Shown: positions 454 through 17,187 of the stretch, in pieces
How the letters are laid out: each line of letters starts with the position of its first letter
Position numbering within the stretch: the stretch's first letter is position 1
Origin: a bacterium
GTDB taxonomy: Bacteria > Sumerlaeota > Sumerlaeia > MVZB01
Length of the DNA stretch: 46,714 nucleotides
Assembly (NCBI GenBank): GCA_021372575.1
Contig: JAJFUE010000135.1
Span: 1-46,714, forward strand
Reading direction: 5' to 3'
Translations under genes and position numbers: made by a program
The notes under the pieces: model-generated
Database searches by the model: none
Told to the model about the DNA's origin: nothing
What the model saw: only the letters and a program-made list of their open reading frames with translations

Positions 454-477
454 TTCCGGGACGAACGAAACGAAAAC

Positions 478-502
478 GAGGGGGGAACTTTGCTCCCCCC
501 TC
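478..502. terminator. Hairpin between convergent genes
   Basis: A perfect 9-bp stem (GAGGGGGGA at 478-486 with TCCCCCCTC at 494-502) closes a 7-nt loop, 24 bases after the stop of the left-edge gene. There is no clear T-run on either strand, so termination is inferred from position and stem strength. Confidence 0.45.
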
Positions 503-586
503 TCAAGAATAATCTTCCATCCCGGTTCACGTCCTCTTTCTATGACAATCCATCTTCTCTTCATCGCTATACCCCGAGACTTTTTA

Positions 587-895
587 TCAATCCCCCCTCT
601 CCTTCCCTTTCTTTTCGGCTCGTCGCGGCGGTTTTCGTTCCCGGACGGGTGCCACCCCTTCATTCATCACATACAGCTTTGCGAACTTAAGTATATCGGT
701 TCCAATCGCCTTACATATCAAGCTCAGTTCGTCAATATCCAGTCGTCTGTCGCCTGACTCATACTTGCTGACGAATGTTTGGCGCACATCCAACTGGGCA
801 GCTACATCTTCTTGGGTCATCTTGGCTCTTTCTCGAATACGCTTGAGTAGCCGTCCATATCTAACATGACCGGAGATTGGTTTTCTTTTCTGCAT
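587..895 (-). CDS. XRE-family helix-turn-helix transcriptional regulator
   Basis: A 102-residue protein with a Cro/CI-type helix-turn-helix at about residues 10-70: an RxRExAxMTQEDVA helix, then the recognition helix in VRQTFVSKYESGDR. The C-terminal 25 residues are very rich in Arg and Lys. The ATG at 895 is preferred over the upstream GTG-type start at 940 because GAGG lies about 8 nt before it and because the longer form would run through the -10 region and operator-like palindrome. It is divergent from the excisionase/rep genes, the layout of a repressor controlling an integrated element. Autoregulation through the palindrome at 929-940 is likely but inferred. Confidence 0.85.
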   Translation of the reverse strand: MQKRKPISGHVRYGRLLKRIRERAKMTQEDVAAQLDVRQTFVSKYESGDRRLDIDELSLICKAIGTDILKFAKLYVMNEGVAPVRERKPPRRAEKKGKERGD

Positions 896-1271
896 ATTCC
901 CATCCTCGTATCCCACAGACGAATATCCGTGTATATACACATTTTAAGACAGCCATGCAAGTGTATAGCGTATATGATTTTCGTGTTGATGCACGAGCCG
1001 GCGTTACCCTGCTCGCCCAAACATAATTTATGATTACATGTGAACATAATCAAGCAAGAAAAGCACATCTCATAAAGCCTTATAAATAAGGCTTTTCTCG
1101 ACTCTGTATGTCCAGCCCACACATCCAGCAAATGACCAACGTGCCTTAACAAAAATTCTTGTCATAAAAACAGGCTAAACGCAGGCCCATTTTCGGGTGA
1201 TATTTGAGCGCGATACACGTGTCGCTCTGAAGACGGAATTTCGTCTTCAAATCATTTCCGGAGGTTCCTTT
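896..1271. promoter_or_regulatory. 376-base divergent control region between repressor and xis/rep genes
   Basis: No convincing gene lies here. Besides the minus-strand promoter it contains a 9-bp hairpin with a 4-nt loop at 1074-1095 followed by TTTT, which could be an attenuator or terminator on the plus strand. A near-palindrome surrounds ACACGTGT at about 1209-1224. A third hairpin, TGAAGACG/CGTCTTCA at 1228-1249, ends about 10 bases before the excisionase ribosome-binding site. Several stacked structures in front of xis/rep suggest control of element replication or excision; I could not identify the plus-strand promoter. Confidence 0.4.
929..960 (-). promoter_or_regulatory. Probable promoter and operator of the XRE gene
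   Basis: Read on the minus strand there is a -35-like TTGCAT (955-960), a 17-nt spacer and a TATATA -10 box (932-937). The -10 lies inside a perfect 12-bp palindrome, GTGTATATACAC (929-940). A related sequence, GTGTATAGCGTATATG, follows at 961-976. A palindrome over the -10 box of an XRE gene is the expected place for autorepression. Confidence 0.5.
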
Positions 1272-1538
1272 ATGGAACAAGTCAGTATTGTTGAGCAATT
1301 CGATTCCAATGTTGCGAAGTTGAGTCATGATGATTACCAGTTGTTTTTCACAGAAGCGGAAGCGGCAAAGTATCTTCGAGTGTCAGTTAAGTTCCTTCAG
1401 ACCTGTCGTTGGAAAGGCGGAGGACCTGTGTTCAGAAAATTCTCACGCCTAGTCCGTTATCACATCGATGATCTTAAAAAATATGCTGATGCTTGTGCAT
1501 ATACCTCGACCGGCAAAGAGAGCAAGAGTCATGAATAA
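1272..1538 (+). CDS. Excisionase/AlpA-like helix-turn-helix DNA-binding protein
   Basis: An 88-residue protein with an HTH_17/MerR-like fold at about residues 24-72: FTEAEAAKYLRVSVKFLQ, then WKGGGPVFRKFSRLVRYHIDDL, where R..YH.DDL is the typical end of this domain. Proteins of this type act as excisionases or as transcription activators in integrative elements. The ATG at 1272 is chosen because GGAGG lies 8 nt upstream; the frame is open 25 codons further without a ribosome-binding site. It overlaps the RepA-like gene by 8 bases, so the two are probably translated together. Confidence 0.8.
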   Translation: MEQVSIVEQFDSNVAKLSHDDYQLFFTEAEAAKYLRVSVKFLQTCRWKGGGPVFRKFSRLVRYHIDDLKKYADACAYTSTGKESKSHE

Positions 1539-2610
1539 AACAGCGGAACAACGTATATGGGAGAAGGAATGTATGATGAGCTTACAAGATTTACGCGAAT
1601 ATAAGCCTGATCCTGATGACAAGATTCTCGGAAATAACCTGATTACTCGTGGTGGTCTGACATTGCTGGTCGGTCCTGCTGATATTGGAAAGACAACTAT
1701 ATATTTCCAACTAGCGCTCGCTATGCTTATGAAAAAGAAAAAGTGGTTAGAAAAAATCGAAATCCATCAAAGGCGCTTTAGGATTCTCGTATTTCAAACA
1801 GAAAACAATGCCGAACGAATGCAGCGAGAGACAAGACGTGGGCTCGGAAAGAAACTATTTTTTTCTAACCGCAAACTCTCACCGGATGTGAAGTTCTACA
1901 ACCCGCGAACAATTCAGGATCGAACAATCGCAGACCCGGAAACTTGTGAACACATGAAAGAATGCGTCAAGAATTTCAATCCAGACTTGGTGATCTTCGA
2001 TCCTTATCGCGATTTTTTCGTGGGCAACAGCGAAAATGCCGCTATTGAGACACGTGACACTGTTTATAAGATCATGGAGATTGCCCAAGCTGCCAACCCA
2101 AAAACAGCCACCCTGATAGTGCATCACTCACTCACCGGACAAGCATCTCGGCAGAAAGCCTATGGGCTGGAAGCGAATGAATATGGCAGAGGGTCGAAGG
2201 TGTTAATGTCGATGGCAAGATGTCAGATCAATTGTGCCCCAAACAGTGATGTGTTGGGGAAGGATATGGTGCTTGTTTGTGCGAAAAACAACGATGGACC
2301 AAAATTTGAGCCATTTGGACTCAAACGTAATCTCAAAACGAAACTTTTTGAGCTTGATGAGACATTCGATCCACATAAGTGGAAAAATTCTCAAAGGAGG
2401 CGAAATCGAACAGCGGTGGAACCCAAGGTTAGCATTGAAATCGTAACCAGTATTCTAAATCAAGCCGGCGGTTCTATGACGAAAAAGAAATTGACAGATG
2501 CCATTCGAGAGAAGACAAAATGCAGTTCGTCGACGGCTTATGATTCCATTAAGCACATGTTGGCTTCTGGTGTATTAAAGCCGAATGAAGGTTCTATTCT
2601 GGCATCATGA
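1531..2610 (+). CDS. RepA-like AAA-family ATPase (replication protein of the element)
   Basis: A 359-residue RecA/RepA-type ATPase (AAA_25-like). Walker A is GPADIGKTT near residue 50. Walker B is the hydrophobic run ending in LVIFDP, and LIVHHS follows as a sensor-like strand. The last 60 residues form a probable winged helix (ILNQAGGSMTKKKLTDAI and the following helix). Such proteins act as hexameric helicases or initiators of plasmid and satellite replication. I chose the ATG at 1531, inside the end of the excisionase gene, over an upstream ATG at 1468 that would overlap it by 71 bases. No primase or origin iterons are visible. Its presence suggests the island can replicate after excision. 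Confidence 0.8.
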   Translation: MNKTAEQRIWEKECMMSLQDLREYKPDPDDKILGNNLITRGGLTLLVGPADIGKTTIYFQLALAMLMKKKKWLEKIEIHQRRFRILVFQTENNAERMQRETRRGLGKKLFFSNRKLSPDVKFYNPRTIQDRTIADPETCEHMKECVKNFNPDLVIFDPYRDFFVGNSENAAIETRDTVYKIMEIAQAANPKTATLIVHHSLTGQASRQKAYGLEANEYGRGSKVLMSMARCQINCAPNSDVLGKDMVLVCAKNNDGPKFEPFGLKRNLKTKLFELDETFDPHKWKNSQRRRNRTAVEPKVSIEIVTSILNQAGGSMTKKKLTDAIREKTKCSSSTAYDSIKHMLASGVLKPNEGSILAS

Positions 2611-2622
2611 TGATTATTCCGA

Positions 2623-2652
2623 TTCCGGCCCTATATATATAGGGGGCCGGAA
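2623..2652. terminator. Hairpin after the RepA-like gene
   Basis: A 9-bp stem TTCCGGCCC/GGGCCGGAA encloses a loop of alternating TA, 12 bases after the rep stop codon and between two convergent genes. There is no T-run, so this is a probable bidirectional terminator on structure alone. Confidence 0.45.
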
Positions 2653-2705
2653 AATTGGAAAATCATGCTCGTTAGATATATGAAAGATGTAGGTAAATAG
2701 TAATT

Positions 2706-2738
2706 AGGTCTCTCCAGGTGTTGTGCCCGGAGAGACCT
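2706..2738. terminator. Second hairpin between convergent rep and res genes
   Basis: A perfect 10-bp stem AGGTCTCTCC/GGAGAGACCT with a 13-nt loop lies 39 bases beyond the stop of the Res-like gene. It lacks a strong T-run. Together with the hairpin at 2623 it probably separates the two convergent transcripts. Confidence 0.45.
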
Positions 2739-2777
2739 TCCAAATAGCTGCCTCAAAACGCCAGAATATTTGATCTC

Positions 2778-5700
2778 TTATCCCGACAATACCTTCGTCA
2801 CTTCAGTCGGGCGTTTCACCATCCTGTAATTCCATTTTCCATACTGCCCGTCATTGTTCACCGCTGCTACCCACCTCAAAGCCGCTTGAGCTTTAACTTC
2901 GGCAAGTGGATCGAACCCTTTCGTTTCGAGAATCAAGTGATTCTTCCCGTTCCCCTTCAGCCGGATAATGAAGTCGGGAATGTAATCATGCGGCTGTCCA
3001 TTGTGAAGATATGGAATTGCGAAACCAAGCCCTTCATTTTTCACGAAAGCTTCAACACTTGGATGAGTATCAATCTGATATGCGGCCGATTGCTCCCACT
3101 GGCGAGTATCCGCGACGATGTAATTCAGATGAGAGTGAACAACCTCTCGCACTTCCTTGCTGGTCCAGAAATCCACATCGCCGGTCGAACCTGGCCCGCG
3201 ATGAGTTTCATAGTAAGGAACCTCCGGCGTTTCGCCTTTGGAGGTGTCAGGAGTGATCGCCGCAACAAGCCGCTCAACCACCCATCCGTAATAAGGCGAC
3301 AGGAACACATCAAGAATGTTGGCCGGTTGAACTGGGACAACCTTCTTGCTCAGGTATTCACGGACAATCTTGACCAACTGCGGGAATAACACATGCGCCG
3401 CCGCCTCACAGCTTGGCTGACTCAGATAGTCGCGTGTCAAATCCCGCGCCATCTCGAATATCAATTCCTGTAACCGATTGCCGGCCCGATACGGATTCAG
3501 ATCAATGCTTTCCAACTTCCCCGGTCCGCTCAGGCTGTAGCGCCCCTGATTGTTGGGTATCCCAGCTTTCACTTGCACTTCGGGCGGGATACTCAATGGA
3601 TCGAGATATAGCGGTGCAATCTCATCCCATTTCACCGTCACGCGGTTTCGGATGGCCTGCCGATAACCATCGACGCGAGGGAACTGGATTTCGTATTGTG
3701 CCTTCTCAGGAATACTTTGAACGTGCTTGCGTTTAGACGGTGGAGGTGCAGGGCCGGTTGGGTTCTGTTTAAACGGAATCACCTCGAACGGAACCCCGAA
3801 TACCTTGGCGACTTCCTCCGGCAGTTTATCTTCAGCATCATAATCCTTGTAATTTGTCCGCCTCAGCCCGCGACCAACAACTTGCTCGCATAACAACTGC
3901 GACATGAATGGCCGAAGCCCGATGATATGAGTAACGGTGTTGCAGTCCCACCCTTCAGTCAGCATCCCGACGCTCACGATACACCGGATGTCCCGCCCTG
4001 GCGGATACACAGGCCGCTTTAACTTTTCAGCCAGTGCTTCAAATCCATCCGGGTAAACCGGCCTACCCTGACGATCCCGTGGCCAATCCATTCTGCCGAC
4101 CGTGTCCAATGTGAACCGCATCCATCTGTGCTCATCATCCTTGGCACCTTCGGTATCGGTTTCATGGACTACTTTAGAATCGACCCGGATCGTGTTGACA
4201 TTGCCATTTGTATTGCGGAATCCATCAATACTAACTCGCGGCACACCTGTTGGCGGGTTATCTTCGCCCAGCCACTCATAAATCACTTTGGCGATTTGCG
4301 TATTCTTGCAGACCAGAATAAACACCGGGGGGCGAGGGTCCTGGCTGTGCGTTTCCCATTCCTTCTGTAGGTCTTGCCAGAGCCCCGCCAGCATCGCAAT
4401 CGGCGTATTGGCCCATTTCAAGATCGCCTCAGGTTTCGGACTTCCACGACGACCGCCCTTTTCCCTCGGCGTCAACTTGTCCAGAATCCAGCGCCATATA
4501 TTGAAGTAACCCGGAACTTCCGCTCCGCTCGTATCCCGAACGACCAGTTGCGGGATTTTGACGAGCCCGGATTCAATTGCGTCGGTGAGCCCGAAATCGC
4601 TCACGACCCAAGGGAAGGTTCTGTTCGTCTCCTGACCGACCCGGCCAAGGAAATACGGTGTGGCGGAAAGATCAAGGCAGAAGTTAATCCCGCGCTGTTT
4701 ATTGACCCGATCCAGTCCCTCGATCCAAACCGTCGCTTCCTTGAAAAATTCCTCTACTTCCTCTACTTCCCCAAGCACCTCTTCTTCTTCATCGTCAGGT
4801 TCCGGCCGGCGGATTCGATACGCGTGATGAGCTTCGTCATTGAACACGAGGATATTCTGTTTCCCGCCAACTTCCCGGCCCAACACCCGATTGACCACCG
4901 ACGTGTCGCTCTCGACATATCGAACCGTTTCCACCATGACGCGCTTAATGTTTCCCTGTTCGTCGTTTTCCTCTTGGATCACATTCAGCATTCCGGCACC
5001 GCGTTGAAGCCGGTAATCCTCTATTGAAAGGTATCGTTTGCCCCGCGCCGTCTGTGTCTTCGCACCGATGTGAATCCATTCCCGGCTTCTCTGAGGGGCT
5101 CCCGCTTTGATTACCCTAGCCCCCACTCCGCCGTGTTGGATGCCCTGCGGCTCAAATACATGCCAATTCGTGACCAGCACGCGGCCTTTCTTGAGGTCTG
5201 GCATGAGATGTTGGGGAACCAGATCACGAGTCCGGTAAAGGCTCGCGTCATCCGTCAAGGGGTCCAGCTCCCCTAACCGGCTCCTGATTGTCACGTTCGG
5301 GCAGACCACCAGCACGACATCTGAAAACCGCCCATCACTCCGGTCATTCACCTTGTTCAGGATACTCCAAGCCGCAAGCATCCCCATGACCGTCGTTTTA
5401 CCCGATCCTGTGGCCATCTTGCAGGCATACCGGCGAAACGCCTTGATCCCCTGCGCCTGTTGATCAGCGCTCGGTTCATCAATTGGAATTTCGACACCCT
5501 GAAGGAAATCGTTTCTCGCTTCGGTCAGGAATATGAGCGTTTCCGCCGCCTCAAGTTGCGCGAAGAAAAGCCGATGCTGACGACCATCCCGCCGCCAGTA
5601 GTTAAGCAACTCAAGCGTCGTCCGGGTCACTCCCGGCCATCCCTGATTGCGCCATTCGGCGACACGCTCCCGAATCAGGTTGACCAATCCCAATTCAACC

Positions 5701-5882
5701 CACTGTCCCCGCGCCCCATGCTCGTTATCGGTCTGGTTCATGCGCGGATCGCGGTAGTAATACCCCGCCGGCCGTCTTCCCTCGCGTTTCTCCGGAGCTT
5801 CCCCCTCGACAATGTGCCAGTGCGCTTGCGGCTCGTTGAACGGCGAATTGAGTATTGGTTCGGGAACCTCGAAATTACTCAT
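2778..5882 (-). CDS. Res-type DEAD/DEAH helicase-endonuclease of a type III-like restriction system
   Basis: A 1034-residue superfamily 2 helicase fused to a nuclease. Motif I is ATGSGKTT near residue 157, motif II is DEAH near 349, motif III is SATPY, and motif VI is in EQVVGRGLRR. The C-terminal part has PDFIIRL followed by LILETKG, a PD-(D/E)XK signature placed as in type III Res subunits. The overall build matches what I recall as the BPTD_3080-type restriction endonucleases. The ATG at 5882 overlaps the stop of the upstream nuclease gene (ATGA), and the gene is third in the operon methyltransferase, nuclease, helicase. Expected role: ATP-dependent cleavage of DNA lacking the partner's methylation. 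Confidence 0.88.
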   Translation of the reverse strand: MSNFEVPEPILNSPFNEPQAHWHIVEGEAPEKREGRRPAGYYYRDPRMNQTDNEHGARGQWVELGLVNLIRERVAEWRNQGWPGVTRTTLELLNYWRRDGRQHRLFFAQLEAAETLIFLTEARNDFLQGVEIPIDEPSADQQAQGIKAFRRYACKMATGSGKTTVMGMLAAWSILNKVNDRSDGRFSDVVLVVCPNVTIRSRLGELDPLTDDASLYRTRDLVPQHLMPDLKKGRVLVTNWHVFEPQGIQHGGVGARVIKAGAPQRSREWIHIGAKTQTARGKRYLSIEDYRLQRGAGMLNVIQEENDEQGNIKRVMVETVRYVESDTSVVNRVLGREVGGKQNILVFNDEAHHAYRIRRPEPDDEEEEVLGEVEEVEEFFKEATVWIEGLDRVNKQRGINFCLDLSATPYFLGRVGQETNRTFPWVVSDFGLTDAIESGLVKIPQLVVRDTSGAEVPGYFNIWRWILDKLTPREKGGRRGSPKPEAILKWANTPIAMLAGLWQDLQKEWETHSQDPRPPVFILVCKNTQIAKVIYEWLGEDNPPTGVPRVSIDGFRNTNGNVNTIRVDSKVVHETDTEGAKDDEHRWMRFTLDTVGRMDWPRDRQGRPVYPDGFEALAEKLKRPVYPPGRDIRCIVSVGMLTEGWDCNTVTHIIGLRPFMSQLLCEQVVGRGLRRTNYKDYDAEDKLPEEVAKVFGVPFEVIPFKQNPTGPAPPPSKRKHVQSIPEKAQYEIQFPRVDGYRQAIRNRVTVKWDEIAPLYLDPLSIPPEVQVKAGIPNNQGRYSLSGPGKLESIDLNPYRAGNRLQELIFEMARDLTRDYLSQPSCEAAAHVLFPQLVKIVREYLSKKVVPVQPANILDVFLSPYYGWVVERLVAAITPDTSKGETPEVPYYETHRGPGSTGDVDFWTSKEVREVVHSHLNYIVADTRQWEQSAAYQIDTHPSVEAFVKNEGLGFAIPYLHNGQPHDYIPDFIIRLKGNGKNHLILETKGFDPLAEVKAQAALRWVAAVNNDGQYGKWNYRMVKRPTEVTKVLSG

Positions 5883-6916
5883 GACTCCACCTCATCAGCA
5901 ACCAATTCGCTGCTTACGATAAAGTCTTTCTTTGGCATGTCATTTTTCAGAGCTTCGTTGAATCCGTCAATCTCATCTGGGCTGGTTAGAAAGAACCGAA
6001 CACTTCGGCCATGATTCACCAAATCGAGAAGAATTCCATTTCCCAGTTTATCGCGCCAGTAATTCACATCATCCTCAAACCGGGCATATTGCCATACATA
6101 TGCTGAATTTCTACTGACTCTCACTTGGAATCGGCGGACACCGCCGATACGAATGTGAAGCAGTCGCTTCGGAAGATGATTCTCACACCCTGCCGCAAGC
6201 ATGGTCTCAAAGAATTTGACGACCGCCGGGTTGCCAACCGACTCTAAAGCATCTTGCCAGTTGCTCCATTGAGTGCTGGTTGTTGCTATCCCGCGACGGC
6301 TCCGCCTAATAGCATGTTGGGCCAACTCGGGGGCGGGGTAAATGCAGGTGCAATTCAGGTATTCCGCGTTCCCATCTGCCGACAGCTCAATCCGATAACA
6401 ACGAATGTCCACCTCATACTGACTATTCAACCACTCCGCGGTCGCCAACACCTCGTAATCATACCCCTCAGCCACAAGGATAATGCGTTGCATCGAATTC
6501 AAACTCTCGGGCGGTTCCTCCATGAACTGTTCCAGCTCTTCTCCCGCTTCCTCTGGTGTTCTACCTGTCAGCTTTGCACGCTCTTCAATAAACCGGCTTA
6601 CTTCCCACTTCGACAGCATAGCCGCATACGAAAGCGCCTGAAGCAGTTGCAGTTTGTTGCTATCCCGTTTCAATTCGATCACGACGGCCGCGCCTTGCAG
6701 GTCCACCGCCAATAGATCGATACGATCCTCAACAAAGTCCGTCGGGCGGGCTTCCTCGCCGACCAGCAGGAGCTTTTCGCCGATCTCCGCAAAGAACGTC
6801 TCCGGGCTGCTACGCATCATCTTTTGAAGGTCATAGCGCTCGGTAATACCCTGTTCAGTCAGTGTGCGTTGCTCAAGCCGAGCCAGTGTCCCGTTCTCGC
6901 GGATAATCTTCAGCAT
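5879..6916 (-). CDS. PD-(D/E)XK nuclease-like protein (NucS/DUF91-related) in the restriction operon
   Basis: A 345-residue protein. Residues about 25-110 match the NucS/DUF91-type nuclease fold: EIGEKLLLVGEE, then the catalytic-looking RIDLLAVD and VVIELKRD, which give the D...ExK pattern. The middle and C-terminal parts (about 150-345) are not recognised. The ATG at 6916 is used because it begins one base after the methyltransferase stop (TAGG-ATG) with GGGAG upstream; an in-frame start at 6961 would overlap the previous gene by 43 bases. It overlaps the helicase gene by 4 bases, so all three are probably translationally coupled. It may be a second nuclease, a specificity factor or a guard. 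The helicase gene already carries its own nuclease domain. Confidence 0.75.
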   Translation of the reverse strand: MLKIIRENGTLARLEQRTLTEQGITERYDLQKMMRSSPETFFAEIGEKLLLVGEEARPTDFVEDRIDLLAVDLQGAAVVIELKRDSNKLQLLQALSYAAMLSKWEVSRFIEERAKLTGRTPEEAGEELEQFMEEPPESLNSMQRIILVAEGYDYEVLATAEWLNSQYEVDIRCYRIELSADGNAEYLNCTCIYPAPELAQHAIRRSRRGIATTSTQWSNWQDALESVGNPAVVKFFETMLAAGCENHLPKRLLHIRIGGVRRFQVRVSRNSAYVWQYARFEDDVNYWRDKLGNGILLDLVNHGRSVRFFLTSPDEIDGFNEALKNDMPKKDFIVSSELVADEVES

Positions 6917-6917
6917 C

Positions 6918-9761
6918 CTACCGTGCTCCCTTCTTCTTTCCATTCTTCTCCACTTCGGCATCTTTCAGGCTTTTGACGATCAGCAACTCATTCCCCCGGT
7001 CATCGATCACCTTGACGGCAATTTGCCCCTCTTCGCCCGCCTCAAACGGATAGCTGACGGTCCCGGCCAGATGATCCCAGACGTTGTCGTCAAACTCCGC
7101 CTTTAACGACCGTTTAAGGCTGTCCCAGGCCGCTGTGCGGGGGAAAAAGACCTGACGGGCATGGAAGCATAGGCCGTTATAGTTCTGGTCCAGCATCCAG
7201 CACGGCACGTCATCCCCCTGCCGGTGGTCGATCTCCATCGTTGCTGGATCGAACACGTCCAGCCCAAGCACCTCGACCTGATATTTCCCGTCCTTATTCC
7301 GCCGCAACTTGATCTCCGGCAACCCGCACACGCTGAATATCTGGCTGGACCGCATATTCTTTAATAGGTCGCCCATCATCAGGTCGGGTGTCGCCTGGAC
7401 ATAGGTGGACGGCACGCCGACTGCCGCCTCGCTATCCTCGACCAGCTTGCGGGCATTCGGCTGGATGGCAAAGCCGATCACGTAAAGATGCTGATACCCC
7501 TTGGCATGTGCCTCACGCGCCGCCTCATAGACCAGCTTCTCGCTGACCGCCCCGTTTTCGGGTCCGAACACGATGGCCACTGTTTTCTGTGAGAACGGAA
7601 GCAGGTTATCGGACTTCTCGACCGCCTCGTTAATGGCATCGTCCAAGGTCACAGTTCCGGCTGCCGTGGCGTCAACAACAGCTTCGGCCGACAGCGAAAG
7701 TGTCTTTGCCGGCAATCGGATATTCCGAAGCGACACCGTCTTTCCGCCGCCAAGGTGTAGAACAGGGCTCTGCCGCAACACTTCCAGCATTCTTTCGAGG
7801 AAAGAAGCATGATCCTCGCCGCCAACCCCGCTGTCCTCTTCCCCGTCACCTTCCCAATCAATCGGGGTCGGTATCGTCGCTTCCACGGAAAAGGGACCCG
7901 TAACACGAACAATGCCGTTTGACATATCAGGCCGATCAAAAAGAATCGCCTCACTAACAGGCTCTCTATTGGCAATGCTTCCTTTGGTGATATATGGGAT
8001 TATGCCGCCTACTTCTTCCCCTCTACGATTTTGTTTTCGACTATATATAAATCCACCGATCGGACCTCTGGTTGGATTTTTTAACTCATAGTAGGAAAAT
8101 GTTGCGGTTAGCAATCGTTGGCGTGTCAAAGCCAAAGGGACGCGGCTCGTATCGATTGCTATCCAACGTCGTCCCCATTGTTCGGCAACATAAGCGGTTG
8201 TTCCACTTCCACAAGTCTGATCCAAAACAAGATCGCCGGGCTCGGTAGTCATTAAAATACATCGTTGTAAGACCTTGTTGCTTGTCTGAACAGCATAGAT
8301 TTTGTCGTTTGGAGCGGAAGTATCACTCCACAAATTCGTTAAAACTGATACCGGAGAATCGCTTAATTTGAGAACGTAACGGATGGTTTCGCCGTCTTCA
8401 TAGGGTTCGATCCTATCCGCCTCAGCGAGACGCTGCATACCTTCTTGATTTGTGAACCAACTATTTCCATCCGGCGGGAAATATGATTTGCCCCTGAATT
8501 TGAACTCGAACAATCCAGATTGGTTCACACCCGCTGGGTATAATGAGATTAGCTGTATTGGTGTTGATCCTGCTGGCAATAGTGAATGGTTCGACATTTC
8601 TTCTTTTGTCATCTTGCGCCGTGAGCCATCAGGCAACTCCACATAATTCCAATGGGAATCACCTTCTACAGACATGAACTCATATAGAGGATTGAATTTT
8701 AGTTTTTCGATGTCTTTTGCATACCAAAGAATGTAATCCGTAACACTTTCTAAGAATTTCGCGCCAAGCGGCATCGTCTTTTTACGGAATGGTATGATTG
8801 AGACAAAGTTTTCGGGTCCAAATATTTCGTCGAGAACTTCTCGCACATGATGCAAATTTTCGTCGCTTATTTGAACGAACATGCTTCCTTTTGGAGTGAG
8901 AAGGTCGCGTGCAACAGAAATATGGTCCCGTAGATAACTCAAGTATGAGTGAATCCCAAGCGACCATGTATCTCTATATGCTTTCACCATTTCGGGTTCA
9001 CGGGTGAAATCTTCATCTTCATTATGCGTCACATCGCGCTTTCGCACGAATGGTTGGAAATTTGAGCCGAACTTGATGCCATACGGCGGGTCCATGTAGA
9101 TCATCTGAACCTGACCGGCGAGCCCCTCATACTCGACCAATGAATTCATCACGACGAGCGAGTCGCCCAGGATCAGCCGATTGACCCAATTGTCCTTGTG
9201 CTCATAAGCCCGGAGGACCTGTTCATGGATCGGGTGCCCCGGATCACCAAACAGATCGAGCATGTCTTCCTGCACGACGCTTTGATGGCTTTTGAAGGTT
9301 TGCAGGATCGCTTGGGTCGATAGCCGCTCATGGACAAACAGAGGAAGCGTGGGGACATCGAAGGAAAGCCGCTCGGCTTTACCCGCCCAGTCCAGGAACG
9401 GTTTGCCCAGCCGCTTCAACTGGCCGACCGCATCACTCAAGCCGGCGACCGTGGCAATAACATGCCCCCTGGCGTCCTTGAAAACGCGCGGCTGATCGAA
9501 TTGATGCGGATCGGGAAGCGCAGCCGCCGCCTCAATGGTCGCCAATAACCACTCGCCAAATTCACGTGCCGGATTCTGGCCATCCCAATCCATCGCCGGC
9601 GACAGGGAGCTGTCATACCGATACGTCTTTGGCGGTTTCTTCTTCCGGAACTGAGCCTGAGTGCCCACCTCCGGCCGCATCAGGTTGGTAGCTTCCGGGT
9701 GCCGATAACTCTTCGCCGCAACCCCGCCCCCATTCCCCGCCCCATTCTTCCGCCTCGCCAT
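6918..9761 (-). CDS. Beta-class site-specific DNA methyltransferase (N6-adenine or N4-cytosine), Mod-like
   Basis: A 947-residue methyltransferase. The catalytic motif IV, DPPYG, is near residue 224 and the SAM-binding motif I, TCGSGTT, is near 516. That order (IV before I) defines the beta class used by type III Mod enzymes. The region between them probably holds target recognition, and residues about 700-947 form an extra domain I do not recognise. The ATG at 9761 has AAGGTGG just upstream. It is first in the operon with the nuclease and the Res-type helicase, and divergent from the OLD gene across 264 bases. Expected role: protective methylation of self DNA. Confidence 0.88.
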   Translation of the reverse strand: MARRKNGAGNGGGVAAKSYRHPEATNLMRPEVGTQAQFRKKKPPKTYRYDSSLSPAMDWDGQNPAREFGEWLLATIEAAAALPDPHQFDQPRVFKDARGHVIATVAGLSDAVGQLKRLGKPFLDWAGKAERLSFDVPTLPLFVHERLSTQAILQTFKSHQSVVQEDMLDLFGDPGHPIHEQVLRAYEHKDNWVNRLILGDSLVVMNSLVEYEGLAGQVQMIYMDPPYGIKFGSNFQPFVRKRDVTHNEDEDFTREPEMVKAYRDTWSLGIHSYLSYLRDHISVARDLLTPKGSMFVQISDENLHHVREVLDEIFGPENFVSIIPFRKKTMPLGAKFLESVTDYILWYAKDIEKLKFNPLYEFMSVEGDSHWNYVELPDGSRRKMTKEEMSNHSLLPAGSTPIQLISLYPAGVNQSGLFEFKFRGKSYFPPDGNSWFTNQEGMQRLAEADRIEPYEDGETIRYVLKLSDSPVSVLTNLWSDTSAPNDKIYAVQTSNKVLQRCILMTTEPGDLVLDQTCGSGTTAYVAEQWGRRWIAIDTSRVPLALTRQRLLTATFSYYELKNPTRGPIGGFIYSRKQNRRGEEVGGIIPYITKGSIANREPVSEAILFDRPDMSNGIVRVTGPFSVEATIPTPIDWEGDGEEDSGVGGEDHASFLERMLEVLRQSPVLHLGGGKTVSLRNIRLPAKTLSLSAEAVVDATAAGTVTLDDAINEAVEKSDNLLPFSQKTVAIVFGPENGAVSEKLVYEAAREAHAKGYQHLYVIGFAIQPNARKLVEDSEAAVGVPSTYVQATPDLMMGDLLKNMRSSQIFSVCGLPEIKLRRNKDGKYQVEVLGLDVFDPATMEIDHRQGDDVPCWMLDQNYNGLCFHARQVFFPRTAAWDSLKRSLKAEFDDNVWDHLAGTVSYPFEAGEEGQIAVKVIDDRGNELLIVKSLKDAEVEKNGKKKGAR

Positions 9762-10025
9762 GTCAGCCCACCTTGATAAAACGATGATTCAATCAACAAT
9801 CGAAGTGCACGCAAATCAACCCTATAGCGAACAGCTCTACGATACATCACCACATCGAAATGTATAGCCCATTCCACAGATCAGCCCAGCCATACCGCAC
9901 GAGACAATTCTTGACAAAGCGGACAGCAAGTGCAAGAAGGATGTCTTTGATTGCGTTGTTTTCCGGATGTTTTTGGTTTGGAAGTGTTTTTTGACGTTGT
10001 TCCAATTTTCTTCCGACGGTGATCT

Positions 10026-12134
10026 ATGAAACTCAAATCGCTCCGTATCGAAAATTTCCGCGCATTCCGCGATCAGGAAATCCAATTCGACGATTACACG
10101 TGCTTTGTGGGTCCAAATGGGGCGGGTAAATCGACAGTGCTTATGGCATTAAATGTTTTTTTTCGCCAAAGTCCCGAACCGAATGTGGATTTAGCAACTC
10201 TTACCCAAGAAGACTTTCATAAAAAAAATACAGACAAGCCCATTAAGATCACCCTTACATTCACGGAATTGACCGGCGAGGAACAAACCGAATTCAAACA
10301 CTACTACCGCCAAGGGCAATTAGTCGTGATGGCGAAGGCCAGTTGGAATTCGTCCACAAATACTGCTCCGGTAACACAACATGGCAGCAGGATGGTAATG
10401 GCAGATTTCGCTGAGTTCTTCGAGGGACTTGAAAACAAAACATCCGTTGCGGATTTAAGGCTAATATTTAATCGCATTCATGGTAATTACCCAACACTTA
10501 CAGCCGCCACTACAAAAGATGCAATGACTGACTCGTTACAGGAGTTTGAAGAAGCACATCCTGATCTATGCGAACTTCGTGATAGTAATGATGAGCTATA
10601 CGGAATAGCAAAGGGAGGAAAGCTCCAGAAGTTTATTCAATGGGTATATATACCCCCTGTCAAGTTCGCCTCTGATGAACAGACCGAAGCGAAGAAAACA
10701 GCTATTGGCCAAATCTTGGAAAAAGTTGTGCGAAGTAAAATTTCTTTTAAAGATGAGATAAATACACTCCGTAGTAAAGTATTTATGGAATATCAGGGGA
10801 TTGTTGACGGAAAGCAGAAGGCTCTTGATGATTTATCAGTGGGGCTATGCAAGAGGCTGCAAACATGGGCTACTCCACAATCGAAGATTGGATTAAAGTG
10901 GTCAAACGATGACAATAACGTCAATATTAAGGACCCCCTAGCACGTGTGCTAGTCGGTGATGATGCTTTCATTGGCAGCTTGACCAGATTAGGACATGGC
11001 TTGCAACGGACATACCTAATTGCAGTTCTTGAAGAACTTGCCAGTCTAACCGCTGAAGGCCAAACTGGTCCTCGATTAATATTGGCGTGTGAAGAACCTG
11101 AACTACATCAGCATCCGCCGCAGCAAAAACATCTCAAGAATGTCTTTGAAGAAATTTCCGAGAAAAACAATCAAGTGATGATTACGACACACAGCCCCTA
11201 TTTTGTTTCGGGGCGAGCATTCGAACACGTAAGAGTAGTTCGTAATCCTGCAAGCACCGGCGAAGCAACAATTGCCAGCACAACTTATGATTTTATTGCA
11301 GCAGAGACAGCCAAGCTGCCGGGAATGACACAGGTTGCAACCACAAAATTTCAAGAAGCTCGGTTGCAGCAGGCATTACAACCAGCTCTCAACGAAATAT
11401 TCTTTTCACCAATAGTCGTCTTGGTTGAAGGATTAGAGGACGTGGCATATTTAACATCATATCTAATAATGAGCGGAAAATGGACTGAGTTTCGCCGACT
11501 TGGGTGCCATATTGTTCCAGTATCCGGCAAAAGCGAACTGCCCCAGGCTATCATTCTGACCAAAGCATTCAAGTTTCCCTGTTTTGTGATTTTCGACTGT
11601 GATTCAAGTTATGTGGAAAAAGCGAATGTTGAGATTCCAGAAACGGAATGCGAGAATTGCAAGAAGTTTTGGTTACAGCGCAAAACCAATGCCGCTGCTA
11701 ATGAAGCTCGGCACAAGCTTGACAATCAAAGGATTTTCAAAGCACTCGGTCATGACGGGGAATCGGCATTTCCGCCAGATACTTTGTGGAAGGATGACCT
11801 CATTGCATGGCGAGACAACATTCATTCTGCCTTGATCGAAGATATTGGGAAATCAGAATTAGAGGGATTTGAGAATCGTGTTCGGGCACAAAGAAGCCTC
11901 CAAGGAGACGGCTCGATTAAGAAGAGCGAGTTGCTAATCGGCTACACGATAGAATTGCTCTACGCCGAAGGAATTCGCTCAACGGTATTGGAAAGAGCTT
12001 GTGATACTATTCTTGCGTTTGCGAAGAAACAAACCGCTATCCCCGATTCAGTTCCCGAATCCGAAATGCCGCCACCGGAATCTGAGGCAACTCAGGCTGT
12101 AGAAGAAGATACGCCCGAACTTAATGCAGTTTAA
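10026..12134 (+). CDS. OLD-family ATPase with TOPRIM nuclease domain
   Basis: A 702-residue protein of the overcoming-lysogenization-defect family. The N-terminal ABC-type ATPase has Walker A GPNGAGKST at residues 29-37, a Walker B region LACEEPELHQHP near 355 and an H-loop TTHSPYFVSG. The TOPRIM domain begins with VVLVEGLED near 463 and has FVIFDCDSS near 522, giving the metal-binding E and DxD residues. The last 40 residues are rich in Pro and Glu. No UvrD/GajB-type helicase follows, so it is a class 1-type OLD rather than a Gabija pair. It starts a plus-strand operon with KTSC and DUF2130 genes. Likely role is nucleic-acid cleavage in phage defence. Confidence 0.88.
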   Translation: MKLKSLRIENFRAFRDQEIQFDDYTCFVGPNGAGKSTVLMALNVFFRQSPEPNVDLATLTQEDFHKKNTDKPIKITLTFTELTGEEQTEFKHYYRQGQLVVMAKASWNSSTNTAPVTQHGSRMVMADFAEFFEGLENKTSVADLRLIFNRIHGNYPTLTAATTKDAMTDSLQEFEEAHPDLCELRDSNDELYGIAKGGKLQKFIQWVYIPPVKFASDEQTEAKKTAIGQILEKVVRSKISFKDEINTLRSKVFMEYQGIVDGKQKALDDLSVGLCKRLQTWATPQSKIGLKWSNDDNNVNIKDPLARVLVGDDAFIGSLTRLGHGLQRTYLIAVLEELASLTAEGQTGPRLILACEEPELHQHPPQQKHLKNVFEEISEKNNQVMITTHSPYFVSGRAFEHVRVVRNPASTGEATIASTTYDFIAAETAKLPGMTQVATTKFQEARLQQALQPALNEIFFSPIVVLVEGLEDVAYLTSYLIMSGKWTEFRRLGCHIVPVSGKSELPQAIILTKAFKFPCFVIFDCDSSYVEKANVEIPETECENCKKFWLQRKTNAAANEARHKLDNQRIFKALGHDGESAFPPDTLWKDDLIAWRDNIHSALIEDIGKSELEGFENRVRAQRSLQGDGSIKKSELLIGYTIELLYAEGIRSTVLERACDTILAFAKKQTAIPDSVPESEMPPPESEATQAVEEDTPELNAV

Positions 12135-12166
12135 TTGTTAGCAATGACTTTCAAAGGAGAAGCGAA

Positions 12167-12379
12167 ATGCTGCGTTCACCCGTTACATCCTCCAACATCC
12201 ATTCGATTGGTTATCACTCAGAATCTGGAACGCTCGAAATTGAATTCCACAGCGGATCGGTTTATGTTTATGCAGGGGTTCCGAAAGGCATATACTTGGA
12301 ACTAATGAGTGCACCATCGCATGGAAAGTATTTCGCTGCGCATATCAAAAATCACTATCCCTATCAAAAAATCAGTTAA
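12167..12379 (+). CDS. KTSC-domain small protein
   Basis: A 70-residue protein made almost entirely of one KTSC domain. It shows the typical pattern V-x-SSNIHSIGY, LEIEFHSGSVYVYAGVP, then YLELMSAPSHGKYF and an ending IKNHYPY. The function of KTSC is not established; the fold is also found at the C terminus of some lysyl-tRNA synthetases. AAAGGAG lies 7 nt before the ATG, and the gene sits 32 bases after OLD and 51 bases before the DUF2130 gene. A role as adaptor or regulator of the OLD protein is inference from position only. Confidence 0.8.
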   Translation: MLRSPVTSSNIHSIGYHSESGTLEIEFHSGSVYVYAGVPKGIYLELMSAPSHGKYFAAHIKNHYPYQKIS

Positions 12380-12430
12380 CTTGAGTATATAGGTTCATTC
12401 TGAAACCAGCTTGAATATGGAGGTTCTCAC

Positions 12431-13948
12431 ATGAATTTGGGTCACGCAATCAAATGCCCAAAGTGTCAGTATGAAATCCCACTATCAGAAGCATTGGGTA
12501 ATCAGATTCAGCAACAAATTCAGGCCGAGCTAAACCAGCGGCTTCAAGATCGTGAAACACAGATTCAGGCAGAACACGATGCTTTGGATGCACGCTCAAA
12601 AGAACTCGATCGCCAACAAGAGCTTGTTGACAAGATGGTGGAAGCGAAGTTAAAGGAAGTAACCAACACGATCAGCAAAGATGCCCGACAAAAAGCCGAA
12701 GAAGAATTCGCACAAAAGCTAGAAGCTGCCAATGACGATTTAAAAGAAAAGAAAGAACGAATCAAGGAATTCCAGAAACGAGAGATCGATTTATCAAAAG
12801 AGCGCGAACGCTTGGCCGAACAACAAGCGGAGCTTGAGTTAGAGATGCAACGGCAACGCGATGCCGTTCGCAAAGAACTCGAATCGGAATACCAGAAAAG
12901 ACAAGATGCTGCTATCACCAAGGCGCGTGAAGATGCTGAGCGAAAAGTTCGTGACGAAGCAAGTCAGCAGATCACGCAAGCCCAAGATGAGCTAAAAGCC
13001 CAAAAGCAACAACTCACTAAGATGAGAGATCAGGAACTGACGCTGCGAAAAGAGAAGCAAGAATTAGAGTCAGCCAAGGAACAGCTTGAATTAGATGTTC
13101 AACGCAGACTTGATGGAGAACGCAAAACCATTGCCGAGAATGCAAAGAAAACAGCAGTTGAGGAACAACGACTAAATTTACGTCAGAAAGAAGACCTAAT
13201 CCAGAAATTACAAGAGCAACTTGGCGAGGCTCAACGACGCATTGAGCAAGGTTCCCAGGAACGTCAGGGGGAAATGTTGGAGGAAGAGTTAATTGATGTT
13301 TTGAGACAGACATTCCCATTCGATCATTTTGAAGAAGTGAAGAGAGGGGCACGGGGCGCTGACGTTATGCAAACCGTGCACAACCTACAGGGAAAAACCT
13401 GTGGGCGAATTCTTTGGGAATCGAAAAATACAAAGTCTTTCGACAAGAATTGGCTGACTAAGCTCAAAAAGGATCAACAGGAAAGCGGCGCTGAAATCTC
13501 CGTGCTGATGACGACGACCATGCCGGCCAACATGGAGCTATTTGGCAATGTTGACGATGTCTGGGTGACTGAATTCAAATCTGCGTTATGCTTATGTTCG
13601 GCTCTTCGGCAAACTTTGATACTGGTCGAGCGTGAGAAGCTGGTCGCCACACACCAGGACGGCCTGAAAGACATCATTTATCAATACATAACCGGGCAAG
13701 AGTTCACTGCGCGTGTGAAAATGATTTACACCGCCTATCAAGGAATGCTGGTTGATCTTGAAACGGAAAAACGTTCGATGCTGCGTATTTGGAAAAGTCG
13801 CGAGAAACGCATAGCTCTCGTGCTTGACAATATCGCCGGAATGCGTGGGGAGTTGGAAGGCATCATGGGCGGTCAACGCGTATTGCCCGAATTTGAACCT
13901 CTGAGCCTTGAAGCGATTGCAGCCGAAACCGCTGATTCGGAGAACTAA
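12431..13948 (+). CDS. DUF2130 coiled-coil protein with zinc-finger-like N terminus
   Basis: A 505-residue protein. It begins with a CPKC pair at residues 9-12, a half zinc ribbon. Residues about 25-280 are a long Glu/Lys/Gln-rich coiled coil. Residues about 290-450 are the DUF2130 domain: GADVMQTV, then RILWESKNTKSFDKNWL and LKKDQ. The Asp followed by the WESKNTK strand looks like a PD-(D/E)XK nuclease core, although activity is not shown. The layout (coiled coil plus nuclease-like core) recalls RmuC-type proteins. GGAGG lies 9 nt before the ATG. Third gene of the OLD/KTSC operon, with no obvious terminator after it. Confidence 0.82.
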   Translation: MNLGHAIKCPKCQYEIPLSEALGNQIQQQIQAELNQRLQDRETQIQAEHDALDARSKELDRQQELVDKMVEAKLKEVTNTISKDARQKAEEEFAQKLEAANDDLKEKKERIKEFQKREIDLSKERERLAEQQAELELEMQRQRDAVRKELESEYQKRQDAAITKAREDAERKVRDEASQQITQAQDELKAQKQQLTKMRDQELTLRKEKQELESAKEQLELDVQRRLDGERKTIAENAKKTAVEEQRLNLRQKEDLIQKLQEQLGEAQRRIEQGSQERQGEMLEEELIDVLRQTFPFDHFEEVKRGARGADVMQTVHNLQGKTCGRILWESKNTKSFDKNWLTKLKKDQQESGAEISVLMTTTMPANMELFGNVDDVWVTEFKSALCLCSALRQTLILVEREKLVATHQDGLKDIIYQYITGQEFTARVKMIYTAYQGMLVDLETEKRSMLRIWKSREKRIALVLDNIAGMRGELEGIMGGQRVLPEFEPLSLEAIAAETADSEN

Positions 13949-14259
13949 AAACAGCGATTTCTCCCCGGATAGCTAACCTTGGGAAAAGAAAGTAATGGAT
14001 AGAAGCTCCAAGAAAAAGCCTAAAAACTGGCCTAAAACGCGGGGCGGATTGGAAGCCGCAAGGCCGCTATGAGATTTTAATCAGGGCCGGGAAAGGGCCT
14101 AGCCGGGCCTGAGAGCCGGGCAAGGGCCGGGGGATCGGGGCAAAGCTCCCCCTCGCCTTAGGATCGCTCCCAAGGGGCGGATTTTCGCCTTGCTTGCCAG
14201 ATGCTTGCCGGGGGATTTTCGGGGAAATTCGGGAGATGGGCTAAGCCCTTTAAAATCAG
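13949..14259. other. Island-chromosome junction, no gene seen
   Basis: These 311 bases between the DUF2130 gene and the tRNA 3' end hold no credible reading frame. The sequence changes here from AT-rich to GC-rich and contains repeated GGGCCGGG-like words and a doubled GCTTGCC. The right attachment site is expected within or next to the tRNA 3' end (14260-14300), but the core cannot be fixed without the left end. Confidence 0.4.
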
Positions 14260-14336
<77 letters not shown>

Positions 14337-14661
14337 TCACGGCCAATACATTTATCGCAATGGGCGGGGTGATGCAAGAGAAAGTTGCGCCGTGATGTGC
14401 GTGCATTTTTCGAGAAGCACCGATTCGCCATTCAAACCCCGATTCGTCGTCCGAATCGGCCCAGCCCGCCATGCCGCGTTTGCCAAATGCGGCATTTCTG
14501 TTTACTCGCGATCGTCATCAAAATTTCGAATCAACATCCGTTTTCGCTCGCATAGGCGCCAATCCCTTTAAATTTCCTTTATATTTCCTCCTCAGGCTGA
14601 TGAAATGGGCAGTCCGGGCGCGTGTTGGCGCACTGGGCGATTCCAACCGAGCGAGCGAATC
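14337..14661. promoter_or_regulatory. Region upstream of leuS with a hairpin, no gene seen
   Basis: These 325 bases carry no credible gene. A hairpin ATGCCGC/GCGGCAT (14471-14495) is followed by TTCTGTTT and could end plus-strand transcription ahead of leuS. I see no T-box features (no specifier stem-loop or antiterminator consensus), so leuS does not look T-box regulated. No promoter could be assigned with confidence. Confidence 0.35.
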
Positions 14662-17187
14662 ATGGCGATCGAGACTTATTACCCGTTCCAGGAAGCCGAG
14701 CCGAAGTGGCAGCAAAAATGGGCCGAGCGCGGGCTGTTCCGCGCCCAAATCGACGGCAAGCGGCCCAAGGCCTACGTCCTCGAGCAGTTCCCCTACCCCA
14801 GCGGCAAGCTGCACATGGGCCACGTCCGCGTCTATACGATCGGCGACGCCATGGCCCGCTTCCGCCGCATGCAGGGCTTCGACGTCCTGCACCCCATGGG
14901 CTTCGACGCCTTCGGCCTGCCCGCCGAGAACGCCGCCATCCAGCGCGGCGTGCGCCCCGCCGACTGGACCGAGCAGTGCATCGACGCCATGCGCGCGCAG
15001 CTCGACCGCCTCGGCATGAGCTACGACTGGGACCGCGAGGTCGTCACCTGCCGCGACGACTACTACCGCTGGAACCAGTGGATCTTCATCAAGATGTGGG
15101 AACAGGGGCTCGTCGAGCGCCGCAAGGCCGCTGTCAACTGGTGCCCCAAGTGCCAGACGGTTTTGGCCAATGAACAAGTGATTAACGGAAGGTGCTGGCG
15201 CCACGAGGACACCGAGGTCGATGTCCGCCAGCTCGACCAGTGGTTCCTCAAGATCACCGATTACGCCGACGAACTCCTGCGCGACCTCGACGACAAGCTC
15301 GCCGCGTGGCCCAACCTCGTCACCGCCCAGCAGCGCAACTGGATCGGCCGCAGCGAAGGCGCGCTCGTCAAGTTCAAGGTCAAGGAAACCGGCGAGGACC
15401 TGCCGATTTTCACCACGCGCCCCGACACGCTCTTCGGCGTCTCGTTCATGGTCATGGCCCCCGAGCACCCCAAGGTCCAGGAGTGGATCACGGGCCGCCC
15501 GAACGAGGCCGAGGTCAAGAACTTCATCAACAAGATCGTCCTCGAGGGCCGCGAGCGGCGCACCGACGAGGCCGCCGAAAAAGAAGGCTGCCCGCTCGGC
15601 ATAACCGCGATCAACCCCGTCAACGGCCGCGAAGTCCCGATCTGGATCGCCAACTTCGTCCTTATGGAATACGGCACCGGCGCGATCATGGCCGTCCCCG
15701 CCCACGACCAGCGCGACTTCGAGTTCGCGAAAAAATTCAACATCCCGATTCACGTCGTCATCGAGCCGGAGGGGCAGAAGCTCGACGCGGCGACAATGAC
15801 CGCGGCTTACACCGAGCCCGGCAAGATGGTCAACTCCGCGCAGTTCGACGGCATGGATTCAGTCCCCGCCAAGCGCGCGATCGTCGAGTGGCTCGCCGGC
15901 CGCAACCAGGGCGAGCCCACCGTGCAATACCGCCTGCGCGACTGGCTCATCTCGCGCCAGCGCTTCTGGGGCACGCCGATCCCGTTCATCTACTGCGAGC
16001 ACTGCGGCCTCGTGCCGGTCTCGGTCGATGAACTCCCCGTCAAGCTGCCGAAGGACGCCAAGTTCGGCGACGGCAGCCCGCTCGCCGGCGTGCCCGAATT
16101 CGTGAACGTCACCTGCTCCAAGTGCGGCGGCAAGGCCCGCCGCGAGACCGACACGATGGACACGTTCTTCGACAGCTCGTGGTATTTCCTGCGCTATTGC
16201 GACGCGAAAAACGCCGAGCTGCCGTTCGGCGGCGAGGCCCAGTCGTGGATGCCGGTCGATCTCTACGTCGGCGGCAAGGAGCACGCCATCCTGCACCTGC
16301 TCTACTCACGGTTCTTCACGAAGGTCCTGCGCGACATGGGCCTCATCAAGCTCGACGAGCCGTTCAGCCGCCTGCTCACGCAGGGCATGGTCCTGGCCGA
16401 GGGCCGCGACCCGCGCACCGGCGATGTCCGCTTCTTCAAGATGTCCAAGTCGATCGGCAACGTCGTCGATCCGAGCGAAATCATCGGGCAATACGGCGCC
16501 GACGCCGCCCGCATGTTCATCCTGTTCGCCGCCCCGCCCGACAAGGACCTCGAGTGGACGACCGCCGGCGTCGAAGGCATCGCGCGTTTCATGAACCGCC
16601 TGTGGCGTTACCTGCAAACGAATCTCGAAGCGCTCAAAAAAGGCTTCTCAGAAAACGGCGACGTCGCGCCCTCCGAGCTCGCGAGCGCCGAAGACCGCGC
16701 GCTCCTGCGCCAGGTGCACGAGACGACCCGCCGCGTGACGCTCGACATGGGAGAGCGCCAGCAGTTCAACACCGCGATCTCGGCGTGCATGGAACTCCTC
16801 AACGCGCTTTACGGTTGGGAGCTTCGCGACGACTCGCTTGCGCGCCGCCTCGCCGCGACTGCCATGTCGCGCCTCGCCCTGCTCATCAGCCCGTTCGCCC
16901 CGCACCTCGCCGAGGAAATCTGGAGCCAGATCGGCGCCGCCGGCCTCGTCGCCGAGCAGCCCTGGCCGGAGTGGAACCAGGATGCGCTGCGCGTCGATGA
17001 AATCGAGATCGCCCTTCAGGTCATGGGCAAGGTCCGCGGCCACATGATGGTCGGCGTCAGCGAGGCCGAGGAAGCGATCAAACAACGCGCCCTCGCCGAC
17101 GAAAAGGTCAAGCAGTTCACCGACGGCAAAACCATCCGCAAGGTGGTCTATGTCAAGAACAAGCTCGTCAACGTCGTCGCGAATTGA
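14662..17187 (+). CDS. leuS: Leucyl-tRNA synthetase
   Basis: An 841-residue class I aminoacyl-tRNA synthetase that charges tRNA-Leu. The HIGH-type motif HMGH is at residues 51-54 and KMSKS at about 593-597. The zinc-binding CPKC in the first connective region, the editing domain (TTRPDTLFGVSFMV) and a second CEHC/CSKC zinc module are all present, and DSSWYFLRY is typical of bacterial LeuRS. The ATG at 14662 begins the conserved MAIETYYPFQEAEPKWQ; the frame is open 19 codons further but that part is not conserved. It is the first chromosomal gene after the tRNA and is followed by about 0.9 kb of repeat-rich DNA. Confidence 0.98.
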   Translation: MAIETYYPFQEAEPKWQQKWAERGLFRAQIDGKRPKAYVLEQFPYPSGKLHMGHVRVYTIGDAMARFRRMQGFDVLHPMGFDAFGLPAENAAIQRGVRPADWTEQCIDAMRAQLDRLGMSYDWDREVVTCRDDYYRWNQWIFIKMWEQGLVERRKAAVNWCPKCQTVLANEQVINGRCWRHEDTEVDVRQLDQWFLKITDYADELLRDLDDKLAAWPNLVTAQQRNWIGRSEGALVKFKVKETGEDLPIFTTRPDTLFGVSFMVMAPEHPKVQEWITGRPNEAEVKNFINKIVLEGRERRTDEAAEKEGCPLGITAINPVNGREVPIWIANFVLMEYGTGAIMAVPAHDQRDFEFAKKFNIPIHVVIEPEGQKLDAATMTAAYTEPGKMVNSAQFDGMDSVPAKRAIVEWLAGRNQGEPTVQYRLRDWLISRQRFWGTPIPFIYCEHCGLVPVSVDELPVKLPKDAKFGDGSPLAGVPEFVNVTCSKCGGKARRETDTMDTFFDSSWYFLRYCDAKNAELPFGGEAQSWMPVDLYVGGKEHAILHLLYSRFFTKVLRDMGLIKLDEPFSRLLTQGMVLAEGRDPRTGDVRFFKMSKSIGNVVDPSEIIGQYGADAARMFILFAAPPDKDLEWTTAGVEGIARFMNRLWRYLQTNLEALKKGFSENGDVAPSELASAEDRALLRQVHETTRRVTLDMGERQQFNTAISACMELLNALYGWELRDDSLARRLAATAMSRLALLISPFAPHLAEEIWSQIGAAGLVAEQPWPEWNQDALRVDEIEIALQVMGKVRGHMMVGVSEAEEAIKQRALADEKVKQFTDGKTIRKVVYVKNKLVNVVAN

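Follow-up and report, generated by a model that had tools for sequence, protein, structure and literature searches.

The window analyzed here is contig JAJFUE010000135.1 of assembly GCA_021372575.1 (positions 1 to 46,714, forward strand), from a bacterium of the phylum Sumerlaeota. At 10026..13948 on its plus strand it carries genes for an OLD-family nuclease, of a type with known antiviral activity, and for two little-studied proteins, a small KTSC-domain protein and a DUF2130 protein. With moderate confidence, these are interpreted as a horizontally acquired defense operon centered on OLD, with DUF2130 as a second nuclease and KTSC as a small adaptor that is used by other ATPase systems as well. 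The operon appears to combine known defense parts in a new way, and we infer that it is active in defense and that all three genes are required. An earlier reading, made from the letters of the window (the sequence-only reading), had proposed a three-gene defense system. The defense part of this proposal is supported because the neighborhoods recur: OLD is enriched beside DUF2130, and DUF2130 is found inside SIR2-HerA-KTSC operons. The fixed trio was not found in any other genome searched. The favored reading is also supported by the mobile element in which the operon lies and by the restriction genes next to it.

Organization of the operon

The OLD gene (10026..12134, plus strand) codes for an ABC ATPase-TOPRIM nuclease of 702 amino acids, identified by Pfam, PADLOC, the PDB and an alignment with phage P2 Old. 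It is followed after 32 bases by the gene of the 70-residue KTSC protein (12167..12379, plus strand; Pfam, PDB) and, after a further 51 bases, by that of the DUF2130 protein (12431..13948, plus strand). The latter has 505 amino acids and consists of a CxxC half zinc ribbon, a long coiled coil and a PD-(D/E)XK-like domain, as assigned by Pfam, alignments, AlphaFold and Foldseek. The three genes form a single plus-strand unit, and open reading frames, lengths and gaps agree with those given in the sequence-only reading. The good ribosome-binding sites claimed there are readable upstream of KTSC (AAAGGAG) and DUF2130 (ATGGAGG), whereas the site of OLD is weak. The promoter of the operon is expected in the divergent intergenic region at 9762..10025, between a methyltransferase gene on the minus strand and the OLD gene on the plus strand; a promoter consensus scan of this region revealed no promoter-like sites above chance. 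KTSC and DUF2130 are each present in a single copy in the source genome, and in 3 and 4, respectively, of 40 genomes of the source phylum. NCBIfam gave no model for either protein, and PADLOC gave nothing of weight for either.

The OLD protein

The protein has the family features of an OLD, an ABC ATPase followed by a TOPRIM domain in a single chain. Pfam assigns residues 1-394 to AAA_15 (8e-53) and residues 459-526 to the OLD-like TOPRIM domain (6e-11), both above the cut-offs. AriA is the top PADLOC model (178 bits), followed by Old (168 bits) and the fused AriAB (66 bits); the GajA model also matches. The best PDB match is 6p74, the Thermus OLD, and a resemblance to P2 Old was found by tblastn. 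In an alignment that adds P2 Old itself and six further OLDs to the window protein, K35, E357, H389, E468, D524 and D526 are invariant; Walker A and B, the H-loop and the catalytic TOPRIM residues are thereby covered. The Walker A motif GPNGAGKS (residues 29-36; 10110..10133, plus strand) includes the invariant G29, N31, G34 and K35, and the TOPRIM domain (11400..11603, plus strand) contains E468, D472, D524 and D526, of which E468, D524 and D526 are shared with P2 Old. The equivalents of these three residues bind metal in the Thermus OLD, and their mutation abolishes the lethality of P2 Old in vivo (PMC7049728).

The nearest intact relative found is 46% identical and belongs to a pseudomonadotal locus (L164). 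A decayed relative with a broken frame lies beside an insertion sequence (IS) in genome G1090, with no DUF2130 in the stretch examined. The OLDs of the source phylum in G005 and G007 have no KTSC- or DUF2130-type partners within the stretches examined, and scans of viral contigs with the window OLD and with a two-sequence OLD alignment gave no relatives.

The DUF2130 protein

Pfam recognizes DUF2130 with an E-value of 8e-54, far beyond the curated cut-off, at residues 248-473 (13172..13849, plus strand). D311 (at 13361) and the E330-x-K332 motif (13418-13426) are invariant over 54 diverse DUF2130 sequences and form the D...ExK pattern of the PD-(D/E)XK superfamily. An AlphaFold model of residues 240-505, built from the 54-sequence alignment, has a mean predicted local distance difference test score (pLDDT) of 88.7. 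It shows the order helix, strands, ExK-bearing strand, helix and strand, which matches PD-(D/E)XK enzymes. A PD-(D/E)XK-like fold is the likely prediction for the C-terminal domain; the sequence-only reading had named a coiled coil and a PD-(D/E)XK-like core. When the model was compared with the PDB by Foldseek, DdmD, SPARDA, a Holliday junction resolvase, MspJI and McrC ranked high, with E-values of 6e-3 and above and mixed with unrelated helical proteins; a profile search of the PDB with DUF2130 gave chiefly coiled-coil matches and no nuclease. A contig scan with the single DUF2130 protein gave no matches. A mixed DUF2130 alignment was dropped as a search profile, being too diverse, and in the second alignment, which was used as a profile, Flavobacterium and Campylobacterota are over-represented.

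The KTSC protein

The 70-residue protein matches the Pfam KTSC family with 6e-27 (93.6 bits against a cut-off of 25) and has the YxY core in the form YVY. Its PDB matches are 7x8c, 8wiv and 4rgi. In 8wiv and six more entries, KTSC corresponds to residues 628-696 of a HerA protein, that is, to its C-terminal domain, and four of these HerA-KTSC entries also contain a SIR2 chain. A review mentions HerA together with an endoDNase and a KTSC protein that binds DNA (PMC9503650). The earlier statement that neither KTSC nor DUF2130 has an established role has to be amended as regards KTSC, which is part of HerA systems.

Among 136 genes directly neighboring KTSC, 28 code for HerA, with SIR2 one gene beyond in 19; the KTSC loci were chosen partly by similarity, and these counts are not population frequencies. 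KTSC is a portable accessory that has been recruited repeatedly by ATPase systems. Descriptions of SIR2-HerA usually give two genes. Here, the three genes SIR2-HerA-KTSC were observed in this order with great regularity, in several phyla (L133, L135, L179, L181, L182, L184, L198, L200, L203, L213, L214 and L236). Also, E2-E1-KTSC occurs on haloarchaeal plasmids; in the operon of E2/UBC, ThiF E1 and KTSC at L130:2181-5213, the KTSC protein is 59% identical to that of the window. In three Pseudomonadota genomes (L197, L221 and L222), KTSC is preceded by a gene for 331 amino acids and one for 935-965 amino acids, possibly an unnamed KTSC operon.

Recurrence of the genes as neighbors

A few phyla were sampled, and neighbors were labeled by stringent custom profiles, which may miss weak relatives. 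The sample of 398 Pseudomonadota genomes contained 34 DUF2130 places and 77 KTSC places. A full OLD gene directly adjoins DUF2130 on the same strand in three loci of this sample (L145, L155 and L164). The gaps within tight OLD-DUF2130 pairs are 2 bp in L145, 3 bp in L155 and 5 bp in a viral contig (L018); in L164 the gap is 23 bp. The order in L164 is DUF2130-OLD, reversed with respect to the window, and its DUF2130 protein is 36% identical to that of the window over the aligned part. This locus lies beside IS/transposase-type and ThiF genes, and the L155 pair is flanked by pntB. Because their flanks are pntB and a transposase-type gene, L155 and L164 look like stand-alone two-gene modules. 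The ThiF-domain protein that adjoins the L164 module (L164:5505-7289) gave a faint prokaryotic-E2 match. Besides the viral contig, further pairings were found on an Aliarcobacter plasmid (L012; DUF2130-OLD-UvrD) and in Allomuricauda (L059; OLD-UvrD-DUF2130). In Maribacter (L101) an AAA_15 protein with no detectable TOPRIM domain lies by DUF2130.

Across all DUF2130 loci, OLD was found in 10 of 584 genes at an offset of one or two genes from DUF2130 and in 4 of 2153 genes at an offset of four or more (Fisher odds ratio 9.4, p 8e-5). The background of this test was drawn from the same loci, which partly allows for general clustering in islands. The loci are not entirely independent of one another, and one of the ten cases is the window.

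Seven of the 398 genomes have both KTSC and DUF2130 (nine pairs). In three loci the two lie within about 5 kb of each other on one strand, compared with about 0.02 pairs within 5 kb expected under random placement. All three are SIR2-HerA-KTSC operons, in which DUF2130 is the first gene (L159 and L174) or the last (L154). SIR2 was confirmed by Pfam in each of them, HerA by Pfam in L174 and by custom profile in the other two. KTSC beside OLD was found on a single Haloferax plasmid, 52 bases apart.

A conserved AAA+ ATPase (63% identity between copies) also stands beside DUF2130, at L011:4867-7975 and L158:8965-11969 (Bradyrhizobium; G244), and is a third kind of DUF2130 partner. In the source phylum, a region of genome G032 (L005:2114-11346) contains DUF2130, HsdR-like, OLD-like ATPase and HsdS-like genes beside a tyrosine recombinase-like gene; here the OLD-like gene sits inside a type I restriction locus.

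Comparison with known systems

By its membership features, the operon is neither a class 1 OLD, nor Gabija, a retron or SIR2-HerA; by analogy, it may work most like these ATPase-nuclease systems. Class 1 OLDs such as P2 Old and the Thermus scotoductus OLD likewise have an N-terminal ABC ATPase and a C-terminal TOPRIM domain with E...D and DxD motifs. However, they are defined as single genes (PMC10568477) and have no partner genes, whereas the window OLD has two co-directional partners at 32 and 51 bp. Gabija (GajA-GajB, class 2 OLD) also combines an OLD nuclease with a second enzyme in an operon, but there the partner is the helicase GajB and here it is a PD-(D/E)XK-like coiled-coil protein. 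No UvrD domain was found by Pfam in the neighboring genes scanned, so the absence of UvrD/GajB that the sequence-only reading had pointed out is right for the window; two relatives, L012 and L059, do have UvrD. With regard to retrons (class 3 OLD), no reverse transcriptase was found among the neighbors scanned, and Rfam gave no such non-coding RNA match over 1-14700, where a tRNA is its sole match.

SIR2-HerA systems with KTSC have it as a small third gene or as a fused C-terminal domain of the ATPase, and three such operons include DUF2130. They consist of HerA and a SIR2 NADase, whereas in the window an OLD-ABC ATPase takes the place of HerA; neither SIR2 nor HerA domains were found by Pfam in the window genes scanned. 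PARIS (AriA-AriB) shares the OLD-ABC ATPase and the TOPRIM domain, and AriA is the best-scoring PADLOC model of the window OLD. In PARIS, AriB is a separate or fused TOPRIM protein, while the TOPRIM domain of the window lies within the OLD chain and there is no separate AriB gene. OLD-ABC proteins coupled to PD-(D/E)XK, HNH or PIN nucleases were described from BREX-related islands (PMC12839542). In those pairs the other nuclease replaces TOPRIM, whereas the window OLD retains an apparently intact TOPRIM domain and has DUF2130 in addition. The main text of that paper does not name DUF2130. Since these pairings were described, the principle of an OLD-ABC protein with another nuclease is already known. 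The open literature, with subscription papers and preprints outside the search, yielded neither DUF2130 as an OLD partner nor a link of KTSC to OLD; of the three papers in it that mention DUF2130, none is a defense paper by title and abstract.

Alternative explanations

Several results weigh against the favored reading. The search for conserved trio neighborhoods, which had been proposed as a check of the sequence-only reading, found recurring pairs and no second instance of the complete OLD-KTSC-DUF2130 trio in the other genomes searched. The lack of such neighbors elsewhere had been named there as a refutation, and in these genomes it applies to the trio and not to the pairs. A single ancestral OLD-DUF2130 system was rejected: the OLD-linked DUF2130 proteins are scattered in the tree of the family and intermixed in clades with HerA-linked copies (L145 with L174, L155 with L156, L101 with L069), a pattern that favors repeated swapping of the ATPase partner over a single old operon. 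The E-values of the Foldseek comparison are weak (best 5.9e-3, all above 1e-3). The DUF2130 family is not specific to defense, given that it occurs in one conserved, housekeeping-like gene order across many Flavobacterium genomes and also in phage genomes; in the phylum of genome G042, none of 27 copies adjoins OLD, HerA or KTSC. In viral contigs, KTSC is a solitary phage gene (80 loci). With the profiles used, no HerA, SIR2 or DUF2130 was found at these 80 loci, and no OLD within three genes of KTSC.

Three other explanations were weighed. The operon could be a two-gene OLD-DUF2130 defense module, with KTSC as a dispensable passenger that moved in from a locus of the SIR2-HerA-KTSC type within the island. 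Modules of this kind without KTSC do occur (L164 and L155, the closest OLD relative included), and KTSC is found in many unrelated settings, for example as single phage genes. However, KTSC sits between OLD and DUF2130 with short gaps and a good ribosome-binding site of its own, and it recurs by OLD in Haloferax and with DUF2130 in the three SIR2-HerA operons; a passenger role is considered rather unlikely. Ordinary clustering in defense islands is less probable still. It would make the OLD a class 1-like stand-alone protein with unrelated accessories, and DUF2130 an RmuC-like nuclease of general DNA metabolism that comes and goes with islands. Such islands assemble many genes, a class 1 OLD is by definition a single gene (PMC10568477), and DUF2130 is common in phages and in the Flavobacterium setting, most copies having no OLD neighbor. 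Against this stand tight co-directional pairs in several phyla, which overlap or lie a few bases apart, the enrichment of OLD by DUF2130 over nearby genes of the same loci, and the orthologous OLD of L164, which shares the DUF2130 partner. It is very improbable that the genes serve the integrative element itself and not the host, as a module for competition or maintenance that blocks rival plasmids or phages or degrades DNA once the element is lost. The operon does lie right at the element's attachment site, and the OLD gene of P2 is carried by a prophage and excludes another phage (PMC10568477), but no antitoxin-like partner is recognizable among OLD, KTSC and DUF2130, and the mechanism is not cleanly separable from defense.

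Proposed mechanism and significance

In the favored defense operon, the OLD ABC ATPase would act as an ATP-gated sensor and detect foreign DNA that invades or replicates, and the TOPRIM domain of the activated OLD would nick or degrade DNA. This step follows by analogy from the OLD literature, in which P2 Old and GajA are proposed to be ATP-gated sensors and nucleases. DUF2130, assembled via its coiled-coil scaffold, would make a second, PD-(D/E)XK nuclease cut or process the product. KTSC may be a small subunit that binds nucleic acid or serves for docking and links the ATPase to partners, nucleic acid or DUF2130, a role suggested by the KTSC-HerA fusion. The roles of DUF2130 and KTSC are proposed from domain content and neighbors. 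In the end, phage or plasmid DNA would be destroyed, whether or not the cell dies. A broader possibility is put forward tentatively, namely that DUF2130 and KTSC are a shared effector and adaptor kit for different defense ATPases (OLD-ABC, HerA-SIR2 and perhaps AAA+). OLD-KTSC-DUF2130 and SIR2-HerA-KTSC-DUF2130 would then be two members of one undescribed modular immune architecture.

DUF2130 is widespread and has no assigned function, and its tie to OLD, Gabija-like and SIR2-HerA operons offers a testable role. Small KTSC proteins, beyond being appendages of tRNA synthetases, probably take part in ATPase-nuclease immunity. If this is true, KTSC and DUF2130 would have to be included when some OLD, Gabija and SIR2-HerA loci are annotated.

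The integrative element and neighboring genes

The operon lies at the 3' end of a tRNA-Arg(ACG) gene (14260..14336, minus strand), the integration target, which was confirmed as a tRNA and by Rfam. The 3' end of this gene forms a 45-bp att-like repeat (14260..14304). The repeat is perfect and has one further copy in the genome, on contig C168 (G000:C168, about 4021), where it is without a tRNA gene and is flanked by a tyrosine integrase (PF00589) and by a glucodextranase-type gene. The tRNA island of the sequence-only reading is strengthened by this repeat and the integrase at its other copy. The island is to the left of the repeat in the window and to the right of it on C168, a geometry that would fit the two ends of a single integrative element split across two contigs. 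The integrase (412 amino acids; G000:C168, about 2547-4040, L361) likely marks the other end of the operon-bearing element. The GC content is 0.60-0.66 in the leuS region and falls to 0.42-0.57 within the island.

The restriction-like operon noted earlier beside the OLD gene was identified as three minus-strand genes, which are a second defense system within the same island (2778-9761). They code for a BPTD_3080-family restriction endonuclease/helicase (2778..5882; NF046055, score 1064.8 bits, cut-off 800), a PDC-S11 family protein (5879..6961; PADLOC) and a type III-like DNA methyltransferase (6918..9761; Pfam, PADLOC). Replication- and excision-type element genes are found at 587-2610 of the window, namely an XRE-like helix-turn-helix gene on the minus strand and, on the plus strand, genes for an excisionase-like helix-turn-helix protein and an AAA_25 (RepA-like) ATPase.

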